64,000 nt of DNA from Camillea tinctor (Eukaryota; Ascomycota; Sordariomycetes; Xylariales; Xylariaceae), in the NCBI GenBank assembly GCA_022578605.1, contig MU394053.1:888229-952228 (forward strand). The letters are read 5' to 3'. The first letter of the stretch is position 1. Every line of letters starts with the position of its first letter. Below, piece by piece: positions 2,601 to 35,061 of the stretch. The notes beneath the pieces were generated by a model. The model did not search any database. It worked only from the letters and a program-made list of their open reading frames with translations, and was not told the DNA's origin. The translations under genes were made by a program, and so were the position numbers.

Positions 2601-2671
2601 GCATCAGTGGTTTAGTGGTAAAATCCATCGTTGCCATCGATGGGCCCCGCGTTCGATTCGCGGCTGATGCA
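2601..2671 (+). tRNA. tRNA-Gly (anticodon GCC), intronless
   Basis: A full cloverleaf of 71 nt can be drawn. The acceptor stem is GCATCAG paired with CTGATGC, with discriminator A at 2671. The D arm contains AGTGGTA. The anticodon stem CATCG/CGATG closes the seven-base loop TTGCCAT, giving anticodon GCC. The T arm contains GTTCGATTC closed by CCGCG/CGCGG. A T-rich run downstream (TTCTTTTTCTTTTTT) fits RNA polymerase III termination. No intron is present. Confidence 0.95.
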
Positions 2672-5600
2672 ATACCAATATTCTTTTTCTTTTTTCCTTC
2701 TATTGTTCGTGTGATTACTTTTGTTGGTCAATTAATCTAAATGAAAAAGTCTTGTGTTCTGCTCATTAACCGTGAGGAGGCTATTTTTAGCTTAACCTAA
2801 TTCCCAACGTTCTGGCTCTTTGTTTTTGCCTGATGTCGTCTATTTTATTTACATATTTGTTTCTTAAAATAGGCTTTGGTCATCTGCTGTCGTCGTCCAT
2901 TTCAACAGACTTGCTGAACGAGCGAATGAGTTATTGCTTCGTTTAATGATGACCGGCTTAGTTGGAAAGGGGGCACGCGCGATATCATTATTCTTCGGTT
3001 TCTTGCTTTCGTACGTAGAGCGTAGGGTTTGGTCAGATAATGTGGGCTGGATACTCTGGGTACAGAAAGGTTGACAAGGGCGCTCCATAGGAATGGGGCA
3101 TGTCATATTAGACTCCTTTTAACTAGCTACTATCACGATGGTTGATTCGCTATCCTTCCGGCCTCAAAATTTTTTTACTTGTTCAAATCTTGTTTCCGCT
3201 CGTCTTACTGTTCGGATACATCCTTATTTGTTTCTTGGCCTCTCTCCTTGTTCTTGCCCCTCCTGTTTCCTTCCTCCTCTACTTTTGACCAGGGGTGAAG
3301 GACAAGATGCGGCAAAGTGATCCCGTGCCAAGCGGCGGGTTTTCGTGGAAACTGACAGAAACAGTGGCATCTTCCTCGGAAGGGATCGTGACTTTTTTGG
3401 TTTGTTTTATGCTGGCGGGGACCGGTAGGACTACATTTACCGGTGAGGATTACGAGTCGGGACAATGGTATCCATTTCACAGTGATAGGTAGCGTAGTAG
3501 TGGTGGTGATGGTGGTGACAGTAATAATATAAGGAGGAGCTAAAAATACCTATTCGTCGATAGACGAGAGACCAAACCTCTTGATCACCCCCCCTTCCCC
3601 CCTCAAACGATGTATCATTAAAAGAATTCGAGTAAGCAAATCCGCTCTCGTGTATATGCGCTTTTTCTCTTTCGCGCTTCTAAAACCCATGTAGTAACGG
3701 ATGCTGTTTAGGTTGTAAAGGACGTATTCCCATCCAGGTAGATTAGGTATGATCAGAAGCGGAGCATGGGAAAAGGACAAAAGAAAAGAAAAAAGGAAGT
3801 AAACCATTATTTCGGAGTCGAAGCCGATGCGCATAATGAAATCCCCCCGCCTTCGCCCCTCACACACATACGTTTTTCTAAGTCTTCTGCAAAAAAAAGT
3901 AATACATCAAGTTTTTTCTTTTCCTTTTTATCTTCTATTTCCTAACTTGGGATTCAAACGAGTTATATATCAAAGCGGGTTCCCTTTTGTCGGCAGGTAT
4001 TTCCCGCGTATAGGATATATGCGTGTGATACCTACGAGATACCTGCCTACCAATGTGCGTCTTCCTATCTTGCTGTCTGTGTGTTTGTTTGTACACTAGG
4101 AGGAAGTAAACTTACTGGCTGGTCGAACTCTGCCCAGTAGTTGTTGTGGGCTCTCTGTACTCTCCAAACCATAGGAACCCCCATGTAATTACTACTCCCC
4201 TGCTCTATTCCCACCCACACTCTAAATTATCTCCATTTCTCTTCTCAACCCAAACTGCCGACATCGGCACAGTATAAATAAGAAAAATTATTTCTTGTGT
4301 AAAGTAGATATGTACATGCTCAGGAATAAGGGGAGAGAGTGCGTGAGAAACGGAAGCTTGTAGGTAAGTAGTTGTTGCTGAGTGGGATGTGGAAAAAGTA
4401 GGGAGTGGGGGGCATGGGGGGGTAAGAAGATGGGAAAATAATATTCAGAGGGAAATTAGACGCGAATGTCCTGAACATGGCGTGATGGGGATGGCGGTAC
4501 GGGACGGTACGGGTACGGTACGGCGCGCGAGTCGTTTTTTTCTCTGTCCATGTCTCTTTCTTCCTGCCTTTGGGGGGAGGGGGTAAGGTAGAGAGAGAGA
4601 CGGCAGTCAGAGTGAGTGAGAAAGAAAGTGGGTATTATATAAGCGCAATGTAGATCTGACCTGATATCTCTCTACCTGGACAGCTGAGAAGAAAGGACCA
4701 TCTACCTAACCTACCTTATCTTAGGCTGGCTACTAAGTAGACATGGCATGTATGTACGTACTCATGTCATGTATGTATATGTGCGTGCGTGTGTGTGCGT
4801 ATGTACATGTGTATGTATGTAGGTACCATAAGCACGCGGGATGTAAGTAGGTTGGTAGGTAAGAAGGTAAGGGTAAGGTAACATGCTTGATTAGCAGATA
4901 GACGGACTAACAACAGACGGACGGATTGGTAAGTGGGATTACCTAGCTTAGCGGACAAGCGCCAACTAGGTAGGTAGGTACATACATACACACATCCATA
5001 CGTACATACATGTATGTAAGTAAGCAGCAGCAACCTTTACCTTACCGTGCCTTACCATACCCTGTCATGCCATGCCATGCCATGCTATACCTTACCTATG
5101 TACATACACACGGAGCCAGGTCCCATGGTACAGTGAGACTTATCCAACCCGGCGGCGGCATCTTTTCTTACACGAATAGGTAGAGGCTTCTTACCCCCCT
5201 TCCCCCTTTCTGGCCCCCATTCCATTCCCAAGGGTTTAAGGAAAGGGAGAAAAAAGCCCGCACGGCCGGTCCTAGCAACTACTTACCTAGGAAGGTCTAT
5301 AAATCCTATGTCCGTCTTACGGACCGGGGGGTGGTTGACTAGATCCGGTCAGGCATGCCTCACCTAACCTAACCTTACCTACATAAGTTACCTACTTACC
5401 TAACCTATAGGAATACCTATATGACCGAAATCCCATACCCTCTCCCCCTGCTGCCTATAGAGACTTCTACACATCAACGGGGGAACATGTGACTCAGCTG
5501 AGGCCTAGTTAGGCATTACCTATAACCTAACCTTACATATCTATACCCAACCAGCCAACCAACCAACTACATAAAGCTAACCATGCCTAAGTTAGTATTC

Positions 5601-13939: not shown

Positions 13940-15002
13940 CTAGATCTTTGACACGAAGTTGACCTGGTTCTCCATCGCAAGCCGGGACAGGCGCAAACCA
14001 TCACTCCCTGACTCGAACCCGTGAGGGACACCTAGATACAAATGGAACTCGACGTTGACGTCCGCGGCACTCAGCTTGGACGCATAAGCAATGTCTTCGT
14101 TTCTGAAGAGGTCCAGCGACCCGACGTCGATGTAAGTAGGCGGCAGCCCACTCACGTCCTTAGCTCTAGAAGGCGAAGCGTAAATAGGAACATTCTCATC
14201 ATTTCGCTCCGCTGGTAGGTTTTTGTTAGTCTCGTTTTTTTTTCAGCAAGTAAGGGAACGGGAAAAGAGAGAGAGAGTGTGTGTGTGTGTGAGTCATTAT
14301 ACCTCTTTCTAACCCCCCCAAGTATGTCTTCCAGCCTATCTGGTTCCAGGACGACGTCCAAGAGAGATATGGCGTCATAGGGTGGTCTTCAAGTAAGATA
14401 GTCTGGTCGTCTATCATAGGGGCTACCAGGACCTGGCCGGCCAATGGATGCTTGAGACCCTTGTCCCGAGCGAAGAGCGCAGTTCCGGCAGCGACACCAC
14501 CACCTGCGCTATGTCCGTAGAGTAGGATGCGCGCGGGGTCGACATTGAAGGTCTGCGCGTTCTTCTGCAGCCAAATAATGGCCGAGTACACGTCCTCGAC
14601 CGAGGCGGGGAATGCCTTCTCGAACCCAACTCGATATTCTACTCCAAAGACCTGCGTGTTGTTCCGCTGGGCTATGTCAGTAATGACTCGGCGGGAGAGT
14701 TCTACACTGCCGGAGATCATACCACCGCCATGAACGTATACGATAGCGCGTTGGGCCTTGCCGCCCGTCGGGGTGGATGGTGGCACAAAGCGACGGACGT
14801 TGTGGCGGGTGCCATCGAGCGAGGTGAACTCGTGTTTTGATTCCTGGAAACCTTCTGGGTTCGAGGAGGTAGTGAAGTATTCCTTCATAAGCTTGTTGAT
14901 GTGTTCGTGGATTTGAGATACTTCTGTGAACGCAGGCAGCGGGTTGTCCCTTGAGGGAGACGCAACTTGCTGCCATTCAGAATCGACTATGAGAGGTGCC
15001 AT
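13940..15002 (-). CDS. alpha/beta hydrolase, hormone-sensitive-lipase type
   Basis: Exons 15002-14303 and 14211-13940 join across a 91-nt intron, giving 323 residues. The intron carries a CA repeat and ends ACTAAC...CTACCAG. The oxyanion-hole motif is HGGG (in VYVHGGGMISG). The nucleophile elbow is GHSAGG. The acid lies in VGSLDLFRNED and the catalytic histidine in VPHGFE. These four motifs in this order are diagnostic of the HSL/alpha-beta-hydrolase_3 family, which hydrolyses short-chain esters, lactones or amides. There is no signal peptide, so it is probably cytosolic. The substrate is unknown. It lies 3 kb from the aldonate-type cluster, and membership of that cluster is uncertain. Confidence 0.88.
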
Positions 15003-17009
15003 GTTGGTACGAGAAAAGGTAAATATAACTTGTATGAGAATAGGACGATTAATTCTAAATCAATCGCTGGTGGTGAGGTTGGACGATAATCGTTGGGAGG
15101 TCACAAAACATATATTCACGTCGTTGCCTACTTTTATTATATAGGCACTATAGATGTTATATAGGAATGCTATCCCTACGTCTTATACAATCACTCTAGC
15201 CTCATGCTGAACATACCCATTCGGAAACAAAGTTGCCGACGATATTTTAATACCATTGCTCGTGGAAGTACCTTTGTTACAGAAAAGATCGTAATGTGGA
15301 GTTGGTGATAGGACAAGGTTACCAAGACCCTTCTCAGCCTCTACACCGTATCTAAGCATTAACGAGACCCGCTAGCAGAAAGCACGGGGTTCCGTGCGAG
15401 CCCGGGTCAGCAACTTAGGGGAATTAATGCACCCGGTGCTCCGGTGTCTCTGCTTAGACGTCCTAGAAACTAGGTAGTTTTGAATGCAGCAAGCAGGGGT
15501 TCGGGATTTTTTGCCGGGGCAATTTGTAGCCCGAACCACAAAGTTACGTTGAGGCCACCGGTGATATAGGAAATACCGGAGACTTTCTCATCACGATAGC
15601 TCCAGTAGCGATTTTTGCATTTCTTAGACTAGCGCTCGCAATCTCTCATGAATACTATCCAAGATCAAGATTGAAGCCGCGGAGACTGTCACGACCAGCT
15701 GAGAAAGGACTTAGGCAATAACGTCGTTTTCATGCAGGAAACTAGAACTACAACCACCACCACCTGCGATGTCTTTTCTTATACTTAACAGTACTCTCTT
15801 TGTTTTTATGATGTATGAACTTCCAAATACCTGATGATCCATCATTCGTAACGGATATTTACTTATACATAGTAGGCGTTCTAGTTCTACTATGTATTGG
15901 GGGAAGGGAATTTATTTCTAGTAACGTTCAAGTAAGTAGTTGAGCACGTCCCACACCTATTCTACACCTGAGATCTAGGTACTCCCCACAGGCTGGTAGG
16001 GGCTGAGGTCTTTTTCTTTTCTAACCGATATACGTACGACAAACCTACCTAGGTACTTACCTAATTTTAGCAATTAGTATTATCAAATATGTGAGGAGTC
16101 ACTATTCCTTATAAACAATAATTCTGGTTCATGCTCCGTGTCGTGTTTGGGAGGGATGAAGCTACGCAATAGTTTGTTTCCTCATCGTTCTCGGTAAAGT
16201 GTCAACAGTGGAAAACGTGAAGAATTCCAAGATAGACTGTAGGATTATAAGTTCCGCAACTAAAACGGAGATGGTCAGGGTCTCGGAGGATTTTAGCTGA
16301 GGTATCTAACAAAACTGATCTGCCAAAAGTGAAGAGGATTGAGTCCTAAAATCAGATCGTAGAATGGAGATAGACCGGAATCCTTCATATGTGGGCTGGC
16401 TCAATACCTCAACGGAGATCCTCGAAATCCGATTATCTATAGTCAATCTCGAACACGGCCTCACAAACATGTTCGGCGTACTATTGTCTCTTGGCTAAGG
16501 TCCGCTAGGACGGTAAACTGCATGACTTTTGCAATCCATTGAGGGGGTTTCAAGCTCCAGACAAGTGTTTCTACCCAGAGTCCCTGTCAACGAACATTGA
16601 GTCAAAAAAGCGGTGCCTGACGAATTAAGGGAAATGAACTAGCAGGCATCAACGGCAAGGACATTGATATTTTGAGGGGCCTAGTCTTCTGCTTGTGTGT
16701 CGTGTGTTGAGCCTTTTAAAGTCCATAAGGTCTATAAAGCTCTTGTGGACATATCTCCCCTCTTTACGCTCTCATTGAAGAAGAGCCACATGATAGGTAC
16801 TCACTATGAGCTTTGTTCATTGATATTTTAAGGGTTTGTAAATGCTATAACCGTACATATTAGCCTAGTAAGGGATTTGATGGTGTATCGAAAATGACTG
16901 ATACGTTACGTCCCGGCCAAGGGATGGGGGGAGGGGGGGGTAATTGTATAGCACAGAATAGGGGCACAATGGCCACTCGGTCATTGTAAGAATCTTTTGG
17001 TCTCGAGGT
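15003..17009. other. gene-free stretch left of the solo LTR
   Basis: No convincing open frame above about 60 codons. A GC-rich patch near 15360-15560 contains short palindromes such as CACGG-GGTT-CCGTG. Otherwise the DNA is AT-leaning with TACCTA words near 16040. Confidence 0.45.
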
Positions 17010-18236: not shown

Positions 18237-21200
18237 TTACCCCCTATTAGTTAGCTCCAGAGAACAGGATTCATATAGGGTACCGGTACTGACTAACGAA
18301 TCAAACTGATCCCAGGTAGTCATTTCTACCACAGAACTGCTGGGACTGATGCCCACAAAATGTTCTGCTGTTGAGTCTAGTGATCCAGCAGTACCCGTAG
18401 CACCATAGTTAACACTGCTAATTGGAAACGTGGTGTGAGGTCGGCCATGGCTCGTCATCGTATCTGGCTCAGCCCTGGGCCCTGCTGTACCACCCCCCAC
18501 GCCTGTATAGTCCAATGCTCCAGCTTGAGTCGCCGTTACTGATACACGATCGCGCAAGGCTTGGTTATGCCTTAAGACTTCAAGTCGAAGTTCTTCAAGG
18601 ACCATCCCATATCTTTGAACCCAAGAGCCGTCCCGGGCATTCTTGATGATGCGGGATTGGCAGTCTGAGGCGGCAACATAATAAGGTAGACCTGCATCAG
18701 GCTGTGTATTGCCTTGTTGTATAGCATAAACATAAAGAACCACTACTGCACATGACGAGAAATAATATGTGAACTGATAATTAATAGCATTAGTTATTCT
18801 GGGCAAAAATAATATATCGACTCGTTGAGGCATACCCAAAATGCTTTATGTAGTTGGTTACCTTCCTCAAGCTCCTGGATTAGTTTCGTGATCTGCATCG
18901 CAGAGTTTAGGCATTCATTCACGTTTTGTTCATAGGCACCTTGGGATGATCTCTTCGTCCGTGTGCTACCAGAGTTAGACAGATTGGCAAAATTATTTAA
19001 TAGGAATGGGCGATGGACGATAAGGACTAGAATAGAATCAGCCAACACAGTTTCAAGCAGATTTTCAAATAGGAGATCCGCAGAGAATGACCCCCATATT
19101 GCCATTAAACACAACATAAATCAGACAGTCGGTGGTGATGGAATTACTGACGAGTATGCCAATACGCTAGGTTAAGCACATTTCTCTGCCGCCGGAAGAG
19201 CGGAGGCAGGAGTGATTGAAGTGCACCACGGTCATCTAGAAGAGCAGACAATTCATCTCGCCATATTCTCAGTTCGTCAGTGAACTTGGAGGCGAGCTCA
19301 ACACGCTCGACGGATGATGGTGTCCGTAGACTATAGAATTCTCTAAGGACCCGAGCGATTATACGAGATATTCTAGATTAGGAGCATTAGATACCACCAA
19401 TTACACAAGCTCCATATAAGACTCACTTCACTTGAGCAATCGGAGCAGCCATCTCAGGGAGCGCCCTCTCTGGGACTGCTGGTAGTTGACCAGAGTCAAG
19501 ATCGGCACTGAGAATTGAATCAGTAATGAGTTACTATACCAGGGAGAAGGGGGCATTTGGTGCGGATTTTTAGAAGATATCCTGAGAAGCACACATGCTA
19601 AGACCTAGCAAATGGATGATCAATAAAAAAGGTGAAGGAATAGTGAAGTACTCACTCATCTACACATGCTGGAAACTCCTTATACCTAAGTCAGCTTTGG
19701 CAAAATAAAAAGTGGCAAAATAAAAAGGGGCAAAATTCCTTCCGGTAATTAACCTACTTGGTTAATATCTTCATCATGGAATGCTCTTGGTCGGCCTAGA
19801 GCGGCACCTAAATATGCATCAAGGCTATAGGCGACCCAAAAAGTCCGTTTTCTACACTCAGACTCAATAACGTCACCGTTGGCCGTCTCACTCCTCCTGC
19901 TTCTCCGATGAATCCCAAGGGCAAACACCAGGTGTGCCAAGGTCCCGAAGAGAGACCAGCAATGATTTATGCGGGACTCTGCGAGTAGATAGAAGCATTG
20001 GCATAATCGCGCTTGGATACTTGTCAGACGAACTTCGCCTTTCTCCTCAGATAGTTGATGGTCTGCCGCCCAGAAGAATCGCACACTAGCATTATTAATA
20101 TAAGCTCAATTAGCCAATTAGAAGCAAGCATTCTGTGAAATTTGGTTGATGGAATGGTATCAACCTCGGCACTCAATGTTGAGGTTTCTTCCATATTGAT
20201 GTTGTAGATAGGATTAAGATGAAGACACATCATTGTTTTGTAGCCTCTTCATGGATTGAAGAGGACCGTGCGACATACCTCGACTCTGGCTTTTGGCCAT
20301 CTGACGGCCGCGAAAACTGTGTGGCATGCGCGAACATCATGAATATCAGAGCTATACGACTACGCGCGCCGTCTTTAGTCCTCATTTTGCCGCTCGTCTC
20401 GTAAAGTTCATCTAGCCATAATTCCATGGTCCTACGATGGAGGAAACGATGCGTTGCTACAGCAAAGTCAAAATACCTGCCTAAGAGCTCTTGCGCCTCA
20501 GCCTTGGGGGGTAGTATGAAGAAAGACCCTTCAGACTCGGGAAGTGGCAGATCTCCAAATGTGAATATGGATGACTCGGATGAATAATGAGACGCTTGCT
20601 TCGCCAACTTTTTCTGGAGTCTTAGGAGAAAAGATACTCCAGATGATGGTCCTACCATATGTCCTTGTCTATCTGCTTGGAGTGGTTCCGGAGAGTTCCG
20701 GGAGGAGTCCATCGTTGTTGATTGAATCGCAGATGTTTGGCGCCGAGAAGAGTTGGGATCGGAGGCCATCAAACTTTCTTCAAAGTCCTCTCGAGACTGA
20801 TCAGAGGTCTCGGTGCTGTTTCTCTCATGGTCTATTACATTGCTGTAATGTGATAGCCTCCGTGAGTCGTGAATATGGGACGGAATGCCACCACCCGGAT
20901 TGGGTATCCTAGTCTCTAGTGACCGATGACTTCTTTCATTTTGTGGAAGAACATCACTAGGCGATTGCAGTACGCTGGGATGGCTGCTCTCAATGAAAGG
21001 GAGTCTTCCTCGTCGATATGGAGCAGTGAACTGACAAGCAATACCCAGCTCTAGGCAGAACACACATGGGCATTTCCCAGAGCATCGCGTCTTTCTCCTG
21101 TATGACGTGCATATTAGCAGGGTGCATTATACTAAACGTTGAAGCCGCACCTAGCTCCTCCCATATGTGAGTGGGTTACTTACGATTTGCAACGATCACA

Positions 21201-21383
21201 AGCCCTGCTCACTCGAGATCTCGTAGGGTTCCCCTTCCGTTTCTTGGCTGTCGGATATACCGGATCATTCTCCTTGACCTTATCCGAAGAGCCATAATCA
21301 GGAGTGGATATCTCAAGATCGTGACTACGACCGACTGGGTGTTTATCTCGAATTTCGGGGCTTACATCCATACTCGCTGCCAA
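18237..21383 (-). CDS. Zn2Cys6 fungal-specific transcription factor
   Basis: Eight exons were resolved: 21383-21184, 21097-20279, 20085-19758, 19678-19656, 19507-19427, 19372-19152, 19026-18836 and 18773-18237. They total 2400 nt, 799 residues. The N-terminus is basic (KKRKGN) and leads into a Zn2Cys6 binuclear cluster of spacing C-x2-C-x6-C-x5-C-x2-C-x6-C, split by intron 1. A Ser/Pro-rich linker follows. The fungal_trans domain then shows RLTSIQARLCQCFYLLAESR, CRKRTFWVAYSLD and GRPRAFHDEDINQ. Later exons continue the family pattern (ARVLREFYSLR, HRPFLLNNF, AVVVLYVYAIQ). Exon 4 is a 23-nt microexon. The 193-nt intron 2 is the least certain. It stands next to a catabolic-type cluster on the same strand as the dehydratase, so it is the likely local regulator. 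Confidence 0.9.
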
Positions 21384-21709
21384 TTGATTGAATTAGGAAA
21401 AGAGACAAAAGTGGCGGGAGAGGTTTTCGGAAAAGGAAACTGGGGTATATTGTTGAAAGGGAGAAGCCGAAACTTATATGCATTATTGCAATTGATGCTT
21501 GTATCGAGATATTCAATACATGACGGAGGAGAATGCACATCTCGGAACTTCTGACCGACTAGCCAGGTCGATGATTACATGTAAGTGATCAGCTACCTAG
21601 GGTAATAGGGCCCGGACCTCTACGGGTAACTAATAGACAGGGGGCTAAACCAAGTTTTCTCGAATAACTCAACCTTTTCTATCTATAGAAGCTTTCTGGT
21701 TGCTATGTG

Positions 21710-23016
21710 CTACCATTCTCTCAATTCGTTACCTGGCCCTGAAAATATTGGGCTTACCCACGCCTTTGAATCTTTCGATAGTTCTCGGACCTGATTCTCA
21801 TCGATTTCGATTCCGAGGCCCGGACCACTCATCAAGTCAATGTATCCACCTGTGACCTTCCAGACCTCCGGATTTGTAGTGTAACTTGTTAGATCTTGCC
21901 CGCCCACGTTATAATGGATGCCAAGGCTCATCTCCTGGATCACAAAATTCGGACTCGTCGCGTCGATCTGCACATTAGCAGCCAACGCTATTGGGCCCAA
22001 CGGACAATGGGGAGCCAGTGCAACATCGTATGTTTCACAGGCCGCCGCAATACGTCTCATCTCTGATATACCGCCAACATGGCTGATGTCCGGTTGCAGA
22101 ATGTCTACGCAACCTGCTTCTAGGAATGGCCGGACATCCCACCTGCTATGAAGACGTTCGCCTAGTGCAATAGGCAAATGTGTCTGGGCGGCTATTTGTT
22201 TGATTCCCCCAATATTCTCACTTAATAACGGCTCTTCAATGAAAAGGGGGTCAAGCGGTTCGAGCTTAGCTACAAGCTGCTTAGCCATAGGCTTGTGGAC
22301 ACGCCCGTGAAAATCGACACCGGCATCTAGACCCAAGGCCCTTACTGCCTTCACACGTTCAACGCATGCCTCGAGCTTTTTAGGAGAATCAAGCCAGCCA
22401 AGGTCTTCAGTTCCGTTCATCTTGATTGCGTCAAACCCTTGTGCTTTCCGAGCATTCCTATATCGCAGATCAGGACGTGTTTAATGAGGGAGGTGAGTGG
22501 AAACATACGCCTGTGCCTCTACATCACCTGGGCGATCGCCGCCAATCCAAGCATAAACTCTCAGCTTGTCCCTAACTTTACCGCCGAGAAGCTGATAAAT
22601 TGGAACATTTAATTTCCTCGCTTGGTGTTGTTTAGCGCGTTTCATTCATGGTGAGCTGAGAATTGCATACCCTTGAGATCCCATAGCGCGATGTCAATGC
22701 CACTTAGAGCACTCATAAGCACTGGCCCCCCGCGATAGAAGTTACCTCTATAGGCTGTTTGCCATATGTGTTCGATATCACTGGGATCCTCCCCTTTAGC
22801 TGAAGTCGAGAAAATGGCCTTGGCATAGGGTAATACTTACTCAGCTTCAAACCCCATAAACCGGTCAGCCCAGGAGTCGAGGCATCCTTCTACAGCTTGT
22901 GTGTGTCCTTCCAGGGATGCCTCGCCCCATCCCACGGACCCGGATTCATCTGTAATCTTGACAAAAAGCCATCTTGGTGGCACACGGAAATACTCTAGTT
23001 TGACGATTTTGCCCAT
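21710..23016 (-). CDS. aldonate dehydratase, enolase superfamily (galactonate-dehydratase type)
   Basis: Exons 23016-22841, 22780-22671, 22620-22509 and 22457-21710 give 381 residues, almost the length of bacterial D-galactonate dehydratase DgoD (382). Metal ligands and acid/base residues align with DgoD with a constant offset of two: D181 and H183 in GVDFHGR, E207 in FIEEP, E233 in ALGER and H283 in APHCPLGP. Family enzymes dehydrate an aldonic acid to its 2-keto-3-deoxy acid. The residues support dehydratase chemistry, but the exact sugar acid cannot be read from sequence. It differs from the longer (about 450 aa) L-galactonate dehydratase of the fungal galacturonate pathway. The next genes encode an AKR, an aldolase of the matching type and an MFS transporter, so a catabolic step is likely. 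Confidence 0.9.
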
Positions 23017-23683
23017 GATTGTGTCTTAGATGATATTGTTCGCTCCTTGTAAACAGTATCACACTAATATTACCTGAAATTCAATCGACTTATTTTCTTA
23101 CTGTCAGGGCCTATAAATCGGGCTTGTACGGCTAACGGCTGAATATCTGAGGGGTCCAGGTCCATTGCGGGGGAGGGGAAATGGGGAAAGTGGGTATAGA
23201 ATCGCATTGTTACATATCCATATACCCTGTAAGTGGAGCCATATTCCATTTCTAGTCCGGAATTCACTTTGATTGGCTGAAAAACTACCGATATAGATCT
23301 ACCTTGACTCTGATTGGTTCCTACTATAAAACATGGAATAATGTAGCTCAATTATAGCACGACTATTGACGTTGATCGATCATTATCTCTGCAACATGCT
23401 CTTCAACTTACCCTACAAACATATCTTATGATCAGTCAAAAACTCGAATAGGCTTCTAGAATGACTCCTACAGGTTGTTCAGGGTACTATTTACGGTAAT
23501 AACATAATCATCCAAGAGTGAAAACCTGACGAAAAGTGTACCAAATGGAAATATAGGCTCATGGGGTTTTAAACCAACAACATGGTGATTGGCTGAGGAC
23601 CGAGCTTGTATAATCAACTATTCAAAGCCTACGTATAGCTCAGAAACACAAGAAATATGCATTTTATGTATCAATACTTCACA
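23017..23683. other. promoter region of the dehydratase and 3' flank of the AKR
   Basis: 667 bp without a believable gene; the 93-codon minus frame has no motif. It should contain the dehydratase promoter. The CCGAGG word seen in the two divergent promoters of the cluster is not evident here. Confidence 0.45.
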
Positions 23684-25105
<1,422 letters not shown>

Positions 25106-25556
25106 GGCTTGACTACTCACTCGAATATGATGACCTGATGTAAAGTTATGTTACTGAATATTTCAAGTCAATTCAAAACACTACAAGAATGAACTTCGGA
25201 TAAGTTTCTGACTAAGTAAACATGATTATACTGAACTAGGCACTGTAAAGGTTAAGTTAACTGGAGCAGCACTACGATCTTCGGAGAACTTCGCCATCCT
25301 AAGAGTGGTTTTCCGGTGACGTGATGCTAGAAGAGTGGGTTTCTCCAAGCTTCGGGGTAGTTGTGCACGAGCTATACTCCCCCAGTTAGCCGAGGACCCC
25401 GCATCAAGTTCGCTCCCATATATCCGAAGTGCCTACAAACATCGTGGCGAACTTGGAGAAAGAATTCGAGAAAGTAAATATTTATACCATTTCGTTACTG
25501 TCGAGCCAGGTTTACTAAGAAACTCTTCGAACATATCTAGTTAAGAAACATCCATC
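25106..25556. promoter_or_regulatory. divergent promoter of the AKR and aldolase genes
   Basis: 451 bp between two start codons that point apart. The region has three CTTCGG/CCGAAG words (25279-25284, 25350-25355 and 25424-25429) and one CCGAGG (25390-25395) followed by ACCCCGC. CGG-type words are the usual half-sites of Zn2Cys6 factors, and one such gene lies in this cluster. Binding itself is inferred. Confidence 0.5.
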
Positions 25557-26645
25557 ATGGCTCGAGTTCCGCGCCCTGGTGTCTACGTGCCGTCCCCCAC
25601 GTTCTTCAAACCAATTGCTCCAGGGGCACATCAAGCGGAAGTCGATGTCGCGACGCAATCAGAACACAGCATATTCCTAGCCAAAAACGGGGTCCATGGG
25701 CTAGTTTTGCTCGGTTCTACTGGTGAAGCGATCCATCTCTCGCGATCAGAACGACGCGATCTCATCTCTGGGGTCCGCAAATCGCTCGACAATGCTGGGT
25801 TTCCTGACTATCCCATTATGGCCGGGGTATTGGTCAACGCCGTGGACGAGGCTTTAGAATGGATACAGGACTCGAAAGAAGCGGGAGCACAGTGGGGTTT
25901 GGTGCTTGCGCCAGGATACTTTGGCGGGGCCGCATCGCAAGCAGGGATTATAGAATGGTATACAGCAGTGGCGGACAAGAGCCCGCTGCCGATCCTGATG
26001 TGAGTGGGAACAAGATTTGATTCATCACTGTCATATGAAGGAAGGACGAAACTCACATATATCTGATTAGATATAACTACCCCGGTGTCTCCAATGGACT
26101 GATGGTAACTCCGGAGACATATGAAAAGCTCGCACAGCACCCGAACATCGTTGGTTGCAAGATGTAAGTTATATTACCTTGCTACACCAATATGGACTGC
26201 ATATCTCGGTACTAATATGATCAGGTCCCATGGCAACGTTTCTTACCACGTACAAGTGTCAACATCTCCTAAAATTGATTCTACGAAATTCCGGGTGTTC
26301 AGTGGGTTTGGTCAACAACTTGGTCCAATTGTTGTCTTCAATGCCGCTGGTGTGATAGATGGATTGGCTGCAATCTACCCTTCAACAGTGGTGCGCCTGT
26401 TCGATGTAGTTAATAAGAGACCCCTTGATGAGGAGGCGATTAAGGAAGCTCGGGTTCTTCAGCACAGAGTCAGCAGCGCAGAAGAGTTCATTGGACGCTG
26501 GGGAGTCCTGGGAATTCGAGAGGCTATATACCATGTCACAGGGCTAGGAACGCTTGAAGGTGGTCGGGCACCTCTCCGAGGCAAGATTCCTGACGGTGCA
26601 TGGGCCGAATGGAATCACGTCATGAAGGCGATGTCCGAGAACTAG
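25557..26645 (+). CDS. DHDPS-family aldolase (2-keto-3-deoxy-aldonate aldolase type)
   Basis: Exons 25557-25999, 26071-26163 and 26225-26645 give 318 residues, the usual length of the dihydrodipicolinate synthase/KDG aldolase fold. Visible motifs are LLGSTGEAIHLSRSER, the tyrosine loop YNYPGVSNG, and the Schiff-base lysine (about residue 177) in NIVGCKMSHGN. This last motif with SHGN matches fungal 2-keto-3-deoxy-L-galactonate aldolases (GaaC/LGA1) better than DHDPS proper. Such enzymes split a 2-keto-3-deoxy acid to pyruvate plus glyceraldehyde. It is paired head to head with the AKR, which fits reduction of the aldehyde product. Substrate stereochemistry is not readable from sequence. Confidence 0.9.
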
Positions 26646-26992
26646 GCCGTATATAAACTATTTTATATCTTGGGCTTCATCGTCAAGAATAATATCTTGC
26701 CATGATCTACCCTCATCTCTCTGGCCTGAGTAGGATGTTATTTCCCCTATTATAAGGTCACGAGATACTGGTAAATCAATGTATCGTGGTTTGAAGATTA
26801 TTGCGTAGACACTCAGCTCGTGGACGTGGGAGGTGCATGACCGTCGTACCTAGCTCTAGATCAAAATGTACATATCCCCGGCCACATGAACGGAAAAAGG
26901 CACTAGCTGTGAAATACGATATTCCAGTTATTCAAGTTTTAACCCGCTGTAACCACCGCAGAAGCCCAAAAGCCTTTTTCGAACGATACCCA
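26646..26992. other. convergent 3' flanks of aldolase and transporter
   Basis: 347 bp between two genes that end towards each other. I see no gene. A plus-strand frame overlapping the transporter's last exon is a shadow. Confidence 0.5.
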
Positions 26993-28921
26993 TCAGTACA
27001 CGTAGAAGTTCATGGCCGAGGGGTCCACCTGTCGCATTTTCTTGTTAAGTCTTTGGAGGGCTATCCGCATAACCCAGGCGCAAACAATCACTCCTGCAGA
27101 GAACCCAATAGCCCCTGACATGGCTTTCCTGAACTGTGGGGCATCGGAGTCTATGATCGTTATTGTTAGCTATTTATGGTAACAAGGTGCCTCTCGACAA
27201 TTCAGTGGACTTACCTGGGAAGGTGTAAGGAGTGTAGACTGAGGCAAGATTACCGAATGTGTTGCACATCGCAATTGCAACGGCTTTCTTTTCGTCGGAC
27301 TGCCCAAGGACACTTGCTGTCCATCCTAAGATAATATTGTTCACGCCATAGGTAGCCCCCACAAAAAGCATGATTCCAAAGTACCTAGCTCCAAAGTTGA
27401 AGGTTGACATGCTAATGGCGAAGCCAGCAATAGCAATGGCTTTGGAGACAGTAGTATGCCAAGTGCGTTCGTTGAAATGTCCACTTGACCAAGAAACCAA
27501 GATAGACATAAATGCAGCAAAAATGTAAGGCGGGCATGTGAGCACGAGGGCGACTGTAGTACTTAAGCCAAGACTCTTCACTACAGTTGGAAGGAAATTC
27601 TTAAAGCCGTTGGCGCTGAGGTGCAAGTTGTCCATCAAACAGAACACCCATGTTCGCCAGTCGAGAACAGCTTCTCGCAGTCCCTTCATGACACTAGTTG
27701 TGCCATCACGTCTTTCGGTTGTGTCTTTAAAGATACGGTCATGAGCTAGTTGTCGTTCTTCGGGTGTAAGCCAGCGTGTCTTCAGGGGAGAATCTGGCAA
27801 CAAGTAAAAGCCAGAGATCGCAATAACCATTGAAAATGCCCCTTGAATGATAAAAAGCCTAAGATATTAGGTTAGCTTCAACGTGATCGAGGATCCCGAA
27901 ACCTGTCACCTACCATTGCCATCCAGCAAGACCACGACGACCCCCAAGACCAGCGAAGACAGGAGCAGATATCAAGCCTGAAAAGGCGCTAGCCGCCATG
28001 TTGCCAGTGTAGAATACAGACATTCGTGTGGCTATTTCCTTCCTCGTGTAAAACATACTCAGCATGTACAGTGCTCCTGGATAGAACTGACAACGAGGTT
28101 AGCTTCAAATGAATTTCTGGGCCTGTTCGGTGTCTTACCGGAGACTCCACAATTCCTAGGATAAGTCGCAATACTAGCATGGTCTTATAGTCATGGGCTA
28201 AAAACGTGCATAGTGTGACGATCGACCACGCAGTCATGAACCCTTATAGTTGCATATTAATATAATGGTTTACCAGTTCTCGCCGGGTATGACTTACCTG
28301 CCATGAAGAGTGAAGGGCGAACTCGGTTTAGAAGCATGTTAGAGGGAACCTGAGCCACGTCGCGTGTCAGCATTGTTTACCGGCACTAGAGCTTTTGAAA
28401 GTATTCGCGGTGGAGTATAGCACAAGAAAAATGTAGCTGAATTCGCATATTGAAAAGGGAATTAAGGCCTTAGATAGACTAACCTGCCCACACAAGTATC
28501 CGACGAAAAGAATTGATACACAGGTGTTGTATTCGTATCCTTTCATGTTCAAATCCTTATCGAGACCATCGAGTTTGCCATTGATCATCGCGTTCCGATC
28601 GAGAAAGTTGAAGAAGTACATGAGCCATAGTATCGGCTAATAGTGTATAAATGTTAGAAGGATCTGATACCATTCATGAAATGGTGGTTTTGACGGAAGA
28701 TTCTAAGATTCGGATATCCTTACTAGAATGTAGAGATCAAGCTTCCTCACGAGCTTGATCTCCGCAGGGTCAACTTTGGCATGGGCACCAAATTGGTCAA
28801 CTGGTGCCTCGACCTCTTTAACGAAAGCTTCTTCCTTAGCTTGTTCCACATGTTCCGGGCTCCCGGATCTCTCCTTGTAATCGGGAGTGTCCATGTTGAA
28901 TAGCGGAGAATGGGGGTCCAC
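26993..28921 (-). CDS. MFS transporter, anion:cation symporter (Dal5-like) family
   Basis: Seven exons: 28921-28724, 28636-28484, 28349-28298, 28242-28139, 28086-27914, 27858-27215 and 27150-26993. They give 493 residues with about 12 hydrophobic segments. Family hallmarks are LVRKLDLYILP...WLMYFFNFLDRNAMINGK at the first helix, VGYLCGQVPSN, LLNRVRPS, GIVESPFYPGALYM and FYTRKE, GWQWLFIIQG and YLLPDSP. ACS members in fungi carry carboxylates such as allantoate, nicotinate or pantothenate, and bacterial DgoT in the same family carries galactonate. Import of the cluster's acid substrate is therefore the simplest role. The gene shares a 695-bp divergent promoter with the A-T-R reductase. Confidence 0.9.
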
Positions 28922-29616
28922 GAAGCAATTGTTTTGAGCCTGAAGGGGTGGCTTGGGATATTTATCAACACGGGACTATCAGACCTTGGCGTGGCCCAAC
29001 AAACAGGAAGCTGAAGCTCAAGTGACAGGGCTGATCCTACGTAGACCGTATTGCCTATATCGTTTCTAAGCTAAGTCGACTAGTTGGGGATTTTCTAGTT
29101 TGATGGAGATCAGCTTATGAACCAAGACGCGGGGACCCCGCAAACCCCAGCCTTAGCCAGGCCTTGGCTTACTAGGTTATTATAACGGAAAGGGTCCAAG
29201 CAGTCAATTACATTGGCCTCGCTGACAGGGTGTCATCTCTGCACGGTTCGACTTCCTTTGTTGGGATTTATCCGAGGAAAAGCAAGTGATGAATAGTTTC
29301 GTAGGAACAATTCGGATACAACATGCTTCCTCGGAAAACGTTGCTATGCTGGCACCATGCTTCTCATCCCCACGTCGCAATGGCAACGATCTCCTCAACT
29401 GAAAATATGCTTTTCCGATTCCTATTCGGGTATATGGGACAGCTTGGTTCCAGATACCCGATCATATTCATCCGAACGGCTACGTCCGAGGTTATTAGTA
29501 TTCGTGCCGTTTATGGCATATTATCCTAAGTAGACAAATTGGTGAAGTATTTCTTCATGAGTTCGTGAAGGTTGAGTCGAGCCATATTACATACAACCCA
29601 TGGGAAATCAATCACA
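28922..29616. promoter_or_regulatory. divergent promoter of the transporter and A-T-R reductase genes
   Basis: 695 bp between two divergent starts. It has an inverted pair TCCGAGGAA (29271-29279) and TTCCTCGGA (29327-29335), another CCGAGG at 29486-29491, and the palindrome at 29129-29141. CCGAGG also occurs in the other divergent promoter of the cluster. This suggests joint control by the Zn2Cys6 factor, which is an inference. Confidence 0.5.
29130..29140. promoter_or_regulatory. CGG-N5-CCG palindrome, candidate Zn2Cys6 site
   Basis: CGGGGACCCCG, within the longer palindrome GCGGGGACCCCGC. Inverted CGG triplets with a fixed spacer are the classic binding site of dimeric Zn2Cys6 factors. It lies 209 bp upstream of the transporter start and 477 bp upstream of the reductase start. 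Confidence 0.4.
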
Positions 29617-32600
29617 ATGTCGTCTCTCACAGCTACGCCCCAAGTCAAACTAGACATTGAAAGCCGTAACACGGCTGGGGATGTTGAAAACACATCCATT
29701 GATAGTATAAATGACTTAATCGTCAACCGTGCAACTATTGTGCCTTTCAAAACCTTGCTTGCATATCCTGGCAAAGACGGGGTTTATATCTCTTATACTG
29801 CCAAGGAGCTTGATAACTTCGCAGACGAGGCTGCAAAACAATATGTCCGACTTGGTTTGGCCCCCCAGGTGCGTATTATGACTTTATAACCCCGTAGCAA
29901 ATGATTAACAAGTTCGAACAGGGAGGAAAGGATGAATCTGAAGTTGTGGCTGTACTTGGCCCTTCCAACTTGGATTACATCGTGACCATGCTCGCTCTGA
30001 CTCGAATTGGATTTACCGTGCTTTTCCTTTCGACGCGCCTGTCCATAGAAGCCTATATCGCTCTTCTTAATGCAACGAACTGCCACAGAATAATTACTGT
30101 TCCAAAGCATTTAGACTTGGTTAACCAGGTCGACGAGACTTATAGCATTACCCAGTTTCAGATGCTCAACAGTACAACTTATACGAAACCAGACCAGAGT
30201 GGCACCCGGTTCACGCGACCTGTCGAAATCGAGAACGAATCACAAAAGTTTGCGTTTATCGTCCACTCTTCAGGCTCAACTGGACTTCCTAAGCCAATAT
30301 ATCAAACTCATCGGTCGTGTCTTATGAACTACTCAGTCGGGAGTGGTATGAGAGCGTATGTTACCTTACCCCTATATCACAACCATGGACTAGCAACCTT
30401 TTTCCGGGGAATTACCTATTCAGTTACGACAGCTTTCTTTGACGCTTCATTGCCTATGACCCACGATTACCTGGTAAGCGGAATGGAACAGTTCGGCCCT
30501 GAAAGCCTTCACTGTGTACCATACTCAATCAAGTTACTTGCTGAGAGTGACCGAGGCGTGGAAATTATGAAAAAGTGCAAACTCGTCCTGTTTGGTGGCA
30601 GCAGCTGTCCAGACGAGCTAGGTGATAAGCTCGTGGAGGCCGGTGTTTACATCGTAGGACACTACGGCGCGTGAGTAATATCAAGTTCATCGTTAGAAAG
30701 CAGATGCTAACGGTACTCAGCACCGAGATGGGGCAACTCATGACATCCTTTAGGGAGAAGGACGACAAAGCATGGAATTATATGCGACCATTTCCTAAGG
30801 TCGCCCCATATCTCCGTTTCGTACCCATTGGCGAGGGACTATATGAATGCGTTGTATTAGATGGTTTACCAACGAAAGTAATGTCGAACTCGGATGACCC
30901 GCCAAATTCGTATCATACACGCGACACATTTGTTCCTCACCCGACTATGCCCAATGCTTGGAGGTACATCGGACGCCTAGATGATCGCGTCACACTCGTG
31001 AATGGCGAGAAAGTGCTCCCCATCCCCTTTGAACATCGCCTTAGACAGCATGAGTTGGTCGAAGAGGCTCTCATCTTCGGAGTTGGCAAGGCTTTCCCAG
31101 GCCTGCTCATATTTCCAAGCGAAAAGTCACGCGGTCTTAGCAAGGAAGTCATACTAAATGAACTACTCCCAGCTATCAATGCTGGTAATGAAGCAGCTGA
31201 AAAGTTCGGCCAGATATCAACTGACATGGTAGAAATCCTCGACCATGGCACGTCTTATCCGCGCACGGACAAGGGGACAATCATCCGAGCAGCAGCCTAT
31301 AGAGCATTTGAGAAGGTTATTGAGGATATATACGTGCGGTTTGAAACACATGATGACGCTAGAGATGGTGCTCGGAAAGTACTGAGCCAGTCAAAGCTCA
31401 TAGAATACCTGCTAGATCTATTCACAAACACAATAGGGGTGAAAGATCTAACTGAAGATTCCGATTTTTTCGATCGTGGCACAGACAGCCTTCAGGCTGT
31501 AGCAGCACGAGCTAAGATCATGCGAGAAATTGACATAGGCGACACGATTCTCGGAAATAATGTTGTCTTCGAGTATCCTTCCGTTCAAAAACTTGCGACG
31601 TATCTCTACTCTCTAAGAACTGGCGAGGGACTTATCCAAGCAGACGAGATAGCATTGATGTCCGATCTGATATCGAAATATTCCGACTTTCCTGTGTTTA
31701 CCCCTGGAGGCAATGAGCCAGATGGTGAAGTTGTCGTAAGTCTCATACTAATCTTCCACATCGATAACTAACAGTGGTAACAGCTCCTTACTGGTACGAC
31801 CGGCTCCCTTGGTGCACATATCTTATCTCGCATAGTGTCACTACCGCAGATCAAGAAGGTATACTGCCTAGTCCGAGCAGCTTCAAAAGAGGAGGCCCAC
31901 TCTCGTGTTCTTTCCAGCCTTGGATCCCGTCAAATACTTCAAGGAATGCCGGTGGAAAAACTTGTTGCCTTGCCAAGCGACCTGGGCCAAGCGAGGCTTG
32001 GTCTTGATGATACCACATACACCACTATTCAATCGTCCCTGACTAGGGTTATCCACAGCGCTTGGATGGTAAATTTCAACGTGGGCCTTAGTAGTTTCGA
32101 GCGCTCGCACATTGCTGGCGTTCACAACCTCATCAAACTTTGCCTCAGTGTGCCTTTCCAGGCTCCAGCGAAGCTTTTCTTCGTCTCATCCATATCGGCT
32201 GCGGCAGGGACACCAATTCCAGCTACCATCCATGAGACGCATGTTGAAAACCTTCACCATGCACAAAATATTGGTTATGCGAGGTCGAAGCTGGTCACAG
32301 AACACATCATGAGAGAGGCCACAAGGAAAACGGAGATGGTTGCGAGGGTGCTGAGGACTGGGCAACTTATGGGGGACTCCCGCCATGGGCTGTGGAACTC
32401 CACCGAAGCCATTCCATTGATGATCCAAAGTGCGAAAACAATAGGGGTATTGCCTACCCTAGATGAGGTACGTTTTTTCCCCCATCTATTATTCATGATA
32501 GAGCACACTCTAACATATAGTCACAAAGACTCCTTCATGGCTACCTGTCGATAAATGTGCCTCCGCCATCCTCGAACTCTCAGGCTTAGCTCCAAACTCT

Positions 32601-32957
32601 GATGGGGTCATACCGAGTGATAGCAAAGAGGTCTACCACGTGCTAAATCCGAAGCTTTTCTCCTGGAGTGACGAACTACTCCCTGCCCTGAAGGCTGCTG
32701 GACTGCAGTTTGATATTGTGTCCCAGCGTGAGTGGGTCCGGCGGCTGCGCGAGGGCGAGCAGGATCCGAAGAAGAATCCCACTATCAAGCTACTCGACTT
32801 TTACACAGAGAAGTATGACAACGATCTAGCGGGGCGAAGAGGCCTCAAGTTTGAGACCCGGGTAACAGCACAGCGTTCTGAAACGATCAACAACGGCTTC
32901 GATCTTATACAAAGCGGCATTTTACAGAAGTGCTTGGAGAACTGGCAGCTCTTGTAG
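29617..32957 (+). CDS. NRPS-like carboxylic acid reductase (A-T-R architecture)
   Basis: Exons 29617-29868, 29922-30670, 30721-31735, 31784-32467 and 32529-32957 give 1042 residues, normal for fungal adenylation-thiolation-reductase enzymes. The A domain has the P-loop HSSGSTGLPKP at about residues 198-208, PLYHNHG, FGGSSCPDELG and YIGRLDDRV. The thiolation domain has DFFDRGTDSLQAV, with the phosphopantetheine serine near residue 588. The reductase domain starts TGTTGSLGAHI (NADP-binding) and has the Y-x3-K pair in GYARSK near residues 837-841. There is no condensation domain. Such enzymes activate a carboxylic acid with ATP, hold it as a thioester and release an aldehyde or alcohol with NADPH. 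The last intron was placed at CACAAAG|ACT because only that acceptor keeps the frame. An ATG at 29572 is a less likely start. Confidence 0.92.
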
Positions 32958-33985: not shown

Positions 33986-34605
33986 TATGTTCGATAACCC
34001 ACCTATGCTATTATAAACGGATTATCCTGACATCTCCGATCCAAGTTGGTTAAGGAGTACGCAATGAGAAAAAGCAGAAGGCGACATGAAGTTAGACAAA
34101 ATTATTTTTCGAGAGCTACTCCTCATTCACAAAGAGAGTGTGCTATTGATAATATATTGCTCATGATTTATCTACATGCTTTAGTGACTACACTTGTGTT
34201 TCGTGTTGAATGCATATTAATTTATATTTTATTTAATATGCAGGCAATCCATCGTCTTTGAAATCAACTATCCCGTGTCCCTCATCCGGGTTATTTGATC
34301 TGCATGAAAACATCTGTGGGCCTAATGCTGATTCCACATAGTGTGCTCAGGTACGACGCACATAACGGCTTTAATGTGAAGCCGGAATTAAGACACAGGT
34401 TGTGGCTTGTGGAAGGTCTACGAGGAGCATAAGCAGAGAAACATGGAGTCAACGATATAAATATCGTTGTTTAGCCTTACTAATTCTGCCCAGCACTATG
34501 TTCTCTACCTTTCAGGTGCTCTACTGTACGATTCTGTTCTCCTGCCTACAACACATAAAAGCACACCACTAGAAGTCATATATCTTTTTACCTGGAGAAT
34601 ACAAT
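33986..34605. other. promoter side of the SnoaL-like gene
   Basis: No gene is seen. A 71-codon frame at 34046-34261 has no motif. Confidence 0.4.
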
Positions 34606-35061
34606 ATGGCATCTTCCCTCACTACCGACCAGCTCCACGCCAAACTTGAGGCCTACTGGGTCGCAGTCCGGGCTCTGCGCCCGGACTCACCCGACGCTGA
34701 CTACCAGGCCATGGCTTCGTACATCGCGCCGGATGCGAGCCTCTACTTCCACGGCATAAACACGCCTCCAGCTATCGGGCCCCAGGGCGCCATTGACGAG
34801 ATGCGGAGGCTGACCACGTACTGGCACCTAGAGGAGCGGCGGGTGCGCATGCGCGCTACGGACGGTGACCGCACTGTGGTGGCCGAGATGGACAATTCGC
34901 TGCTGATACAGGGCGTCACCGTCCAGCTGAAGGAGCTCGAGATCGTAGAGTTTGACGATCAGGGGTTGATAAAGAGCTACCGACTATATGTTAATCCTAA
35001 CCCCGTGGCTGAGGCGTTAGCAAAGGCGAAAGCGGAGAAGGAGGCTACCACGTCGAAATAG
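34606..35061 (+). CDS. SnoaL/NTF2-like small protein
   Basis: A single-exon frame of 151 residues. The pattern AYWVAVRAL...DYQAMASYIAPDASLYFHGI...PPAIGPQGAIDEMRRL fits the SnoaL-like/NTF2 fold. So does the later strand pattern RTVVAEMDNSLLIQGV...LKELEIVEFDDQGLIKSYRLYVNP: a helix-plus-curved-sheet cone of about 130 residues. Members include polyketide cyclases, isomerases and many with no known activity. There is no signal peptide. The C-terminus is an Ala/Lys/Glu-rich tail. It lies 1.6 kb beyond the A-T-R reductase and is convergent with the SRPBCC gene, so it may be an accessory of the cluster, which is not proven. Confidence 0.75.
   Translation: MASSLTTDQLHAKLEAYWVAVRALRPDSPDADYQAMASYIAPDASLYFHGINTPPAIGPQGAIDEMRRLTTYWHLEERRVRMRATDGDRTVVAEMDNSLLIQGVTVQLKELEIVEFDDQGLIKSYRLYVNPNPVAEALAKAKAEKEATTSK

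Follow-up and report, generated by a model that had tools for sequence, protein, structure and literature searches.

Fungi degrade D-galacturonate through a pathway comprising GaaA, GaaB, GaaC, and GaaD. A second fungal system, the non-phosphorylating De Ley-Doudoroff pathway, has penultimate-step enzymes that are called still elusive in the accessible part of the literature on it, and we take that step to be the aldolase. How fungi break down galactarate is an open question. For Aspergillus niger, RNA-Seq and gene deletion have defined a gene set on galactaric acid consisting of 39114, 1090836, 1146483, and 1121140 (Kuivanen, 2016, PMC5153877). According to the available portion of that paper, galactarate induces the aminoadipate-reductase-like gene 39114, an aldo-keto reductase (AKR) gene, and a mandelate racemase/MLE gene, and likewise transporters and a regulator (PMC5153877). 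Deletion of 39114 abolishes galactarate use, deletion of the AKR gene blocks or lowers it depending on the medium, loss of the FAD oxidoreductase 1121140 blocks or lowers it, and deletion of the mandelate racemase/MLE gene 1146483 does not block it (PMC5153877, same portion). When 39114 was expressed in yeast, no activity with galactarate was seen, and the passage describing this, as far as accessible, mentions neither ATP nor a phosphopantetheinyl transferase (PMC5153877). Deletion of 39114 is already in use for galactarate-producing strains, and galactarate chemistry therefore matters for biotechnology.

Camillea tinctor, a wood-inhabiting fungus, carries a gene cluster that looks like the missing galactarate pathway. 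In the window, the whole 64,000-nucleotide stretch of DNA that was analysed, the cluster spans positions 18237-32957 and has the following features:

18237-21371, minus strand: Zn2Cys6 transcription factor (TF), 816 aa, PF00172 and PF04082; likely pathway regulator
21710-23016, minus strand: D-galactonate dehydratase (DgoD type), 381 aa, NF010624, PDB 3rr1
23684-25105, minus strand: AKR, 332 aa, PF00248; proposed L-galacturonate and/or glyceraldehyde reductase
25106-25556, unstranded: divergent promoter between the AKR and aldolase genes, with two TATCCGAAGT sites
25557-26645, plus strand: DHDPS-family aldolase, 318 aa, PF00701; proposed 2-keto-3-deoxy-D-galactonate aldolase
26993-28894, minus strand: MFS transporter, 509 aa, PF07690; proposed sugar-acid importer
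28895-29616, unstranded: divergent promoter between the MFS and A-T-R genes, placed from the gene models, with two TATCCGA sites
29617-32957, plus strand: A-T-R (adenylation-thiolation-reductase) NRPS-like carboxylate reductase, 1042 aa; proposed galactarate reductase

A sequence-only reading had described six clustered genes with two divergent promoters here. All six were rebuilt intact with GT-AG introns, each scored above the gathering threshold of its Pfam family, and both promoters could be placed. Full retranslation of five genes (all but the AKR gene) gave no internal stops, on which basis pseudogenes were rejected. The AKR model was assembled manually, with exons one to four retranslated and the other four located individually, and the TF model takes one intron from the alternative of two reconstructions.

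Judged by its sequence, the dehydratase is clearly assignable to D-galactonate. It scored 526.5 bits against the galactonate dehydratase equivalog NF010624 of NCBIfam (cut-off 311), only 122.7 bits against the L-talarate/galactarate dehydratase model (cut-off 500), and 426 bits against PDB 3rr1, and its next match in its own genome is at 31%. A DgoD-type enzyme with all catalytic residues had been claimed, and D181, H183, E207, E233, D256, H283, and E308 are all present; we take these seven to be the metal ligands and catalytic residues. The aldolase lies above the gathering score of PF00701 and has K178 and Y151, presumably the Schiff-base lysine and the tyrosine of the DHDPS family, confirming its earlier assignment to that type. 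That it would act on the D enantiomer of 2-keto-3-deoxygalactonate (KDGal) we infer only from its pairing with the dehydratase. No galacturonate reductase was recognised adjoining the aldolase paralogue on C2. The AKR, whose best PDB matches are aldehyde reductases, had been described as having a full tetrad; its family held up in Pfam, and the tetrad (D, Y, K, H) was read off the sequence only. The transporter scored 156 bits against the D-galactonate transporter family TIGR00893 (cut-off 395) and matched the D-galactonate transporter structure 6e9n weakly (E 7e-5). Because the TIGR00893 cut-off was not reached, the earlier ACS label is reduced to MFS, perhaps ACS-like.

The A-T-R protein contains AMP-binding, AMP-binding_C_3, PP-binding, and NAD_binding_4 domains in one chain, all above gathering thresholds. 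Its residues H237, E430, S590, Y837, and K841 correspond to the five essential in NcCAR, given in the accessible part of the source as a His (PxxH), a Glu (GEK), a Ser in the T domain, and a Tyr and Lys (GYxxxK) (PMC5826065). These domains and residues bear out the earlier description of an intact adenylation-thiolation-reductase enzyme. N238, H239, and Q339, which we take to line the A-domain pocket by mapping to the CoA ligase pocket, are polar and conserved in 114, 106, and 116 of 117 sequences, respectively; the PDB entries matching the A domain are too remote to support a pocket model. A paralogue in the same genome (C3:1390k), which matches the window enzyme at 47%, carries the same polar pocket, and the pocket is therefore weak as proof of a sugar-acid substrate. 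The polar conserved pocket was nevertheless counted for a galactarate route, as was the absence of sugar dehydrogenase and lactonase domains from the six genes. The substrates first guessed, namely an aldonic, keto-deoxy, or non-sugar acid, are unlikely to be correct, since the A. niger data point to meso-galactarate, and hence to an aldarate at the start of the route.

We searched with the A-T-R, aldolase, and dehydratase proteins and took the best 120 matches each. With names transcribed by hand, 116, 106, and 107 of the 120 rows, respectively, were used; 4, 14, and 7 nameless rows and six named dehydratase rows were dropped. Two genes were scored as sharing a contig when the organism name and the contig size of the cluster representative were equal, which is not a measure of gene distance. 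Two rows with a mistyped contig size (P0114, P0334) and one with a guessed organism (P0041) contributed to no match. Among the matches listed, 21 of 24 organisms have A-T-R and aldolase on a shared contig; the figures are 13 of 22 for A-T-R with dehydratase and 23 of 32 for aldolase with dehydratase. Approximately 1, 1, and 1.6 such organisms, respectively, would be expected by chance, and a chance neighbourhood was rejected. In seven of the nine organisms with comparable locus tags, the A-T-R tag lies at most 7 numbers from that of the aldolase or dehydratase. The organisms with an A-T-R gene and one or both partners on the same contig presumably span Sordariomycetes, Leotiomycetes, and Dothideomycetes. 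The check on related genomes proposed with the sequence-only reading was thereby passed, the A-T-R gene included, and co-location is conserved for four of the six genes.

Aspergillus species, which we take to belong to section Nigri, occur in the A-T-R family tree, and this counts for a galactarate route. Two observations count against it: in all three Aspergillus species with both A-T-R and dehydratase among the matches listed, the two are on different contigs, and A. niger is absent from the best 120 A-T-R matches. Trichoderma and Coniochaeta are among the aldolase matches listed and absent from the 116 named of the best 120 A-T-R matches. A gar1-deleted, UDH-expressing T. reesei strain converts D-galacturonate to galactarate almost equimolarly, according to the accessible text (PMC5153877), and Coniochaeta MF729 did not consume mucic (galactaric) acid. 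This accumulation and non-use, in genera without a listed A-T-R match, was also counted for a galactarate route.

The TF has both PF00172 and PF04082, in agreement with its first description as a Zn2Cys6 factor. Across 692 aa it shares 46.5% identity with the TF portion of a fused TF-A-T-R prediction from Plectosphaerella (P0113), in which the TF orthologue adjoins the A-T-R gene; the next TF match in its own genome is at E 2e-9 and 27%. TATCCGA, a motif chosen post hoc from these same promoters, occurs nine times in the window, which is chance level (8.33 expected); eight copies fall within 21251-29318, and the two divergent promoters account for four of these. TATCCGAAGT has 59 copies in the genome, two of them in the AKR/aldolase promoter, and the reversed control pattern has 72. 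TATCCGA is thus a weak candidate for the regulator site.

We consider it fairly probable that the cluster serves uptake and breakdown of meso-galactarate, a reading in which substrates, stereochemistry, transport, and regulation are all inferred. The MFS protein would import galactarate. The A-T-R enzyme, once phosphopantetheinylated, would adenylate one carboxyl with ATP, hold it as a thioester, and reduce this with NADPH to the aldehyde, giving L-galacturonate. The AKR would then convert L-galacturonate to D-galactonate, the mirror image of the conversion of D-galacturonate to L-galactonate. Dehydration by the DgoD-type enzyme would yield 2-keto-3-deoxy-D-galactonate, which the DHDPS-type aldolase would split into pyruvate and D-glyceraldehyde, the latter being reduced to glycerol by the same or another AKR. 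The Zn2Cys6 factor would regulate the cluster genes. With slightly better than even confidence, we extend this to moulds generally: they would use galactarate via A-T-R reduction, L-galacturonate, and D-galactonate, and the cluster would hold the whole route, including the elusive fungal D-KDGal aldolase. The clustered, non-phosphorylating hexonate route proposed from the sequence is well supported for D-galactonate, by the equivalog dehydratase and the aldolase-dehydratase pairing.

At the level of families, the cluster matches the A. niger genes: aminoadipate-reductase-like, AKR, mandelate racemase/MLE, transporter, and regulator are all represented. The window A-T-R and 39114 would be orthologues, the A-T-R nature of 39114 resting on its annotation; the paralogue C3:1390k could instead be the true counterpart of 39114. 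A. niger has redundant D-galactonate dehydratases, which may explain the lack of effect of the 1146483 deletion. No counterpart of 1121140 was recognised by eye among the 38 window ORFs of at least 150 aa. This finding, the harmless deletion of 1146483, and the lack of galactarate activity of 39114 in yeast weigh against the galactarate reading. The statement that no described fungal pathway has this mix must be qualified, since similar genes are known in A. niger; it holds insofar as the accessible text gives no enzyme functions, aldolase, or clustering. Our literature searches found no fungal pathway through L-galacturonate, nothing joining fungal galactarate with a carboxylic acid reductase or mucic acid catabolism with an AKR, and nothing on galactonate dehydratase with an NRPS-like enzyme or on L-galacturonate together with a galactarate reductase.

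A plain D-galactonate or D-galactose cluster (non-phosphorylating De Ley-Doudoroff), with a separate job for the A-T-R enzyme and 39114 corresponding to a different A-T-R protein, is possible, though we think it distinctly less likely. Among the best 120 matches each, some aldolase-dehydratase pairs, for example in Neocucurbitaria and Coniothyrium, have no listed A-T-R neighbour, the paralogue C3:1390k lies near an MFS gene and an FAD hydroxylase gene, and a D-galactonate pathway is reported in A. terreus in the accessible text (PMC11219438). Against this, none of the six genes has a sugar dehydrogenase or lactonase domain by Pfam, and an unrelated A-T-R job is unlikely because the gene shares its partners' contig across the three classes. 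Many A-T-R enzymes of fungi work in secondary metabolism, and PFICI_08544, the P. fici relative, is among 13 A-T-R proteins of that species reported, in the part accessible, as lacking earlier investigation. It is nevertheless improbable that the cluster makes a secondary metabolite, with a keto-deoxy sugar acid or another acid being activated on the A-T-R enzyme and released from it by reduction: Pfam found no domain of a PKS, terpene synthase, P450, or methyltransferase in the six genes (the flanks being scanned in part), and conservation of the gene set over several classes is unusual for such clusters. Galactarate is meso, so that either end could be reduced, and D-galacturonate catabolism is common in moulds, yet reduction to D-galacturonate to feed the classical GaaA-GaaB-GaaC route is very unlikely, since the cluster dehydratase is of the D-galactonate and not the L-galactonate type and an A. 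niger strain without gaaA and without the first 264 bp of gaaC can still catabolise galactarate. Growth on D-galacturonate, by contrast, ceases when gaaC is deleted, so that the route probably does not run via D-galacturonate and L-KDGal. An L-fucose route resembling the T. reesei one (PMC12370193) was rejected, Pfam having found no fucose dehydrogenase or fucosidase domain in the six genes.

If the galactarate reading is true, sugar-acid catabolism makes use of a kind of enzyme that is mostly familiar from secondary metabolism, aminoadipate reductase and glycine betaine reductase being among the exceptions; every step can then be tested, and there is a concrete candidate for the missing D-KDGal aldolase of fungi, which we also propose for the De Ley-Doudoroff step. 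NcCAR, AtCAR, and PnlA resemble the window enzyme in A-T-R layout and the five essential residues. Their substrates, as far as the accessible sources go, are aryl, aliphatic, or amino acids including aminoadipate, whereas a sugar diacid is proposed here, and the gene partners of the window enzyme are catabolic. Like the GaaA-GaaD pathway, the proposed route is non-phosphorylating and would combine uronate reduction, dehydration, aldolase cleavage, and glyceraldehyde reduction; it differs in the opposite stereochemical series, the proposed aldarate start via the A-T-R enzyme, and the clustering of six genes. With the fungal De Ley-Doudoroff pathway, as partly accessible, it shares D-galactonate dehydratase and an aldolase yielding pyruvate and D-glyceraldehyde, whereas galactose dehydrogenase and lactonase are lacking among the six genes. 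With the A. niger set, the cluster has enzyme kinds in common by annotation; that set, in the accessible text, comes with enzyme functions unassigned and aldolase and clustering unreported, and it includes an FAD oxidoreductase with no obvious counterpart in the cluster of C. tinctor, which brings a candidate aldolase together with the other genes at one locus.

Six genes of the window form a conserved fungal metabolic gene cluster, most probably for galactarate. Splice models gave six intact genes, each with its expected Pfam domains, in Camillea tinctor (Xylariales; assembly 44.7 Mb, contig C3 of 1,399,664 bases, of which the window spans 888229-952228); the model of the aldo-keto reductase (AKR) was joined partly by hand. 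The order is Zn2Cys6 transcription factor (-), dehydratase (-), AKR (-), aldolase (+), MFS transporter (-) and adenylation-thiolation-reductase enzyme, A-T-R (+), and the cluster coordinates proposed in the sequence-only reading, 18237-32957, run exactly from the stop of the transcription factor to that of the A-T-R. The gene models leave two divergent promoters.

Divergent promoters in the cluster (from gene models; no strand)
25106-25556, between the AKR and aldolase genes
28895-29616, between the MFS and A-T-R genes

Two motifs found post hoc, TATCCGA (eight copies in 21251-29318 versus one in the remaining window) and TATCCGAAGT (59 copies genome-wide, two of them inside the AKR-aldolase promoter), are possible sites of the Zn2Cys6 factor. 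In the flanks lie an alpha/beta hydrolase (Abhydrolase_3; 14226-15059) and, at 34573-35061, a protein whose weak similarity to SnoaL falls short of the gathering score; neither seems to belong to the route.

The neighbourhood that the sequence-only reading had suggested seeking in other fungi is indeed conserved for A-T-R, aldolase and dehydratase. Protein searches with these three were taken to the best 120 matches each, and rows without an organism name and six named rows were left out of the co-location counts. Among organisms with both proteins in the matches listed, the A-T-R shares a contig with the aldolase in 21 of 24 (1.04 by chance) and with the dehydratase in 13 of 22 (1.02); for the aldolase-dehydratase pair the figure is 23 of 32 (1.62). 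The chance figures assume 40 Mb genomes. All three lie on one contig in at least seven organisms. Where locus tags are sequential, the A-T-R is within seven tags of a partner in seven of nine organisms among the matches listed, and distant in the other two.

Locus tags of A-T-R and partners
Pestalotiopsis fici, close: 08541/08543/08544
Stylonectria, close: g730/g735/g737
Fusarium nematophilum, close: 012733/012736
Stictis, close: 006041/006043
Diaporthe citri, close: 010079/010085
D. ilicicola, close: 3219/3226
Cadophora malorum, close: 001233/001236
F. decemcellulare, A-T-R distant: 2170 versus 12784 and 12786, the latter two together
Aspergillus nanangensis, A-T-R distant: 006600 versus 001271

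In P. fici the single tag 08542 separates dehydratase and aldolase, the place of the AKR in the window. The aldolase-dehydratase gap is 21 tags in Venturia effusa, and A-T-R and dehydratase are on separate contigs in all three Aspergillus species with both among the matches listed. One Plectosphaerella plurivora prediction fuses an A-T-R with a Zn2Cys6 factor 46.5% identical to that of the window over 692 aa; because the next-best Camillea factor reaches only E 2e-9, sequence similarity makes it very likely an orthologue, adjoining the A-T-R in that one genome.

The aldonate half of the route is well supported. With the NCBIfam equivalog model for galactonate dehydratase (cut-off 311) the dehydratase reaches 526.5 bits, and it stays far below the threshold set for L-talarate/galactarate dehydratase. 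The nearest solved structure is 3rr1, named putative D-galactonate dehydratase (426 bits), and the second-best match within the same genome is 31% identical. Pfam assigns the aldolase to the DHDPS family, and its nearest own-genome paralogue matches in two pieces (55% and 43% identity). This second copy, on contig C2 (L024:4283-5652), opens exon 1 with a hydrophobic, signal-like stretch and perhaps has another role. A 470-aa Verticillium longisporum aldolase prediction (P0121) has much of the protein duplicated internally, which may be an artefact of annotation or assembly. The AKR is similar to aldehyde reductases; glyceraldehyde is also reduced by the AKRs Gar1 (the T. reesei D-galacturonate reductase) and yeast Gcy1 (PMC8622349). 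In the fungal non-phosphorylated De Ley-Doudoroff route the penultimate-step enzymes are called still elusive (PMC9781776, available passages), a step that we take to be the aldolase.

The two closest own-genome relatives of the A-T-R have 47% and 41% identity. The closest (L026, G000:C3:1386500-1396400), near the contig end, has a FAD phenol-hydroxylase-like gene on one side and, on the other, an MFS gene similar to the window transporter. A-T-R positions 238, 239 and 339 align with what are taken to be pocket residues in 4-chlorobenzoate CoA ligase. Among the 117 family rows, Asn238 occurs in 114, His239 in 106 and Gln339 in 116; positions 238 and 239 are small or hydrophobic in four of ten further own-genome loci, those in which the motif could be found, and are Leu and His in the paralogue at C1:108k. 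Since the L026 paralogue carries the same three polar residues, the pocket shows no more than compatibility with a polar substrate. The enzyme keeps all five residues established as essential in the fungal carboxylate reductase NcCAR (PMC5826065). It is 54% identical to PFICI_08544 of P. fici, one of 13 A-T-R proteins described as lacking earlier investigation (PMC9605436, available passages).

A quick-method tree covered the 117 family rows (116 matches plus the window A-T-R) and two own-genome paralogues, which separate from the family with support 98, on long branches whose join is possibly false. Aspergillus species, which we take to be of section Nigri, fall inside the family. Trichoderma (one row) and Coniochaeta (three rows) occur among the best 120 aldolase matches and are absent from the 116 named of the best 120 A-T-R matches listed. 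T. reesei engineered to lack gar1 and to express UDH turns D-galacturonate nearly equimolarly into galactarate (PMC5153877), and Coniochaeta MF729 did not consume mucic acid (PMC7393721, available passages). Their absence from the A-T-R matches listed fits these observations, though rows stand for clusters and species and strains differ.

By our own stereochemical argument, galactarate, being meso, could be reduced at the end other than that of D-galacturonate to yield L-galacturonate, whose reduction would give D-galactonate, the substrate of the cluster dehydratase. Among open-licence papers we found none joining galactarate in fungi with a carboxylic acid reductase, fungal mucic acid catabolism with an AKR, galactonate dehydratase with an NRPS-like enzyme, or L-galacturonate with galactarate and a reductase, though description elsewhere is possible. 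Galactarate breakdown probably does not pass through D-galacturonate and L-KDGal, because an A. niger strain that had lost gaaA and the initial 264 bp of gaaC could still break down galactarate (PMC6419801), and only the deletion of gaaC fully stopped growth on D-galacturonate (PMC12744346).

We infer the role of the A-T-R in a galactarate route by analogy with A. niger genetics. The seven selected galactarate-induced genes include 39114, annotated as AMP-dependent synthetase and ligase and as aminoadipate-semialdehyde dehydrogenase (FPKM up from 1 to 5497 at 5 h), the AKR gene 1090836 (1 to 5239) and 1146483, annotated as mandelate racemase/muconate lactonizing (2 to 641) (PMC5153877). We read the annotation of 39114 as the A-T-R layout. 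In the available passages of that study, its deletion blocked galactarate use in both tested media; deletion of 1090836 or of the FAD oxidoreductase 1121140 blocked it in one medium and lowered it in the other, deletion of 1146483 did not block it, yeast-made 39114 had no activity found, and the authors term the pathway unknown (PMC5153877). Deleting 39114 also improved production (PMC6419801). The A. niger set and the window cluster match at family level, except that the cluster has an additional aldolase and no FAD oxidoreductase.
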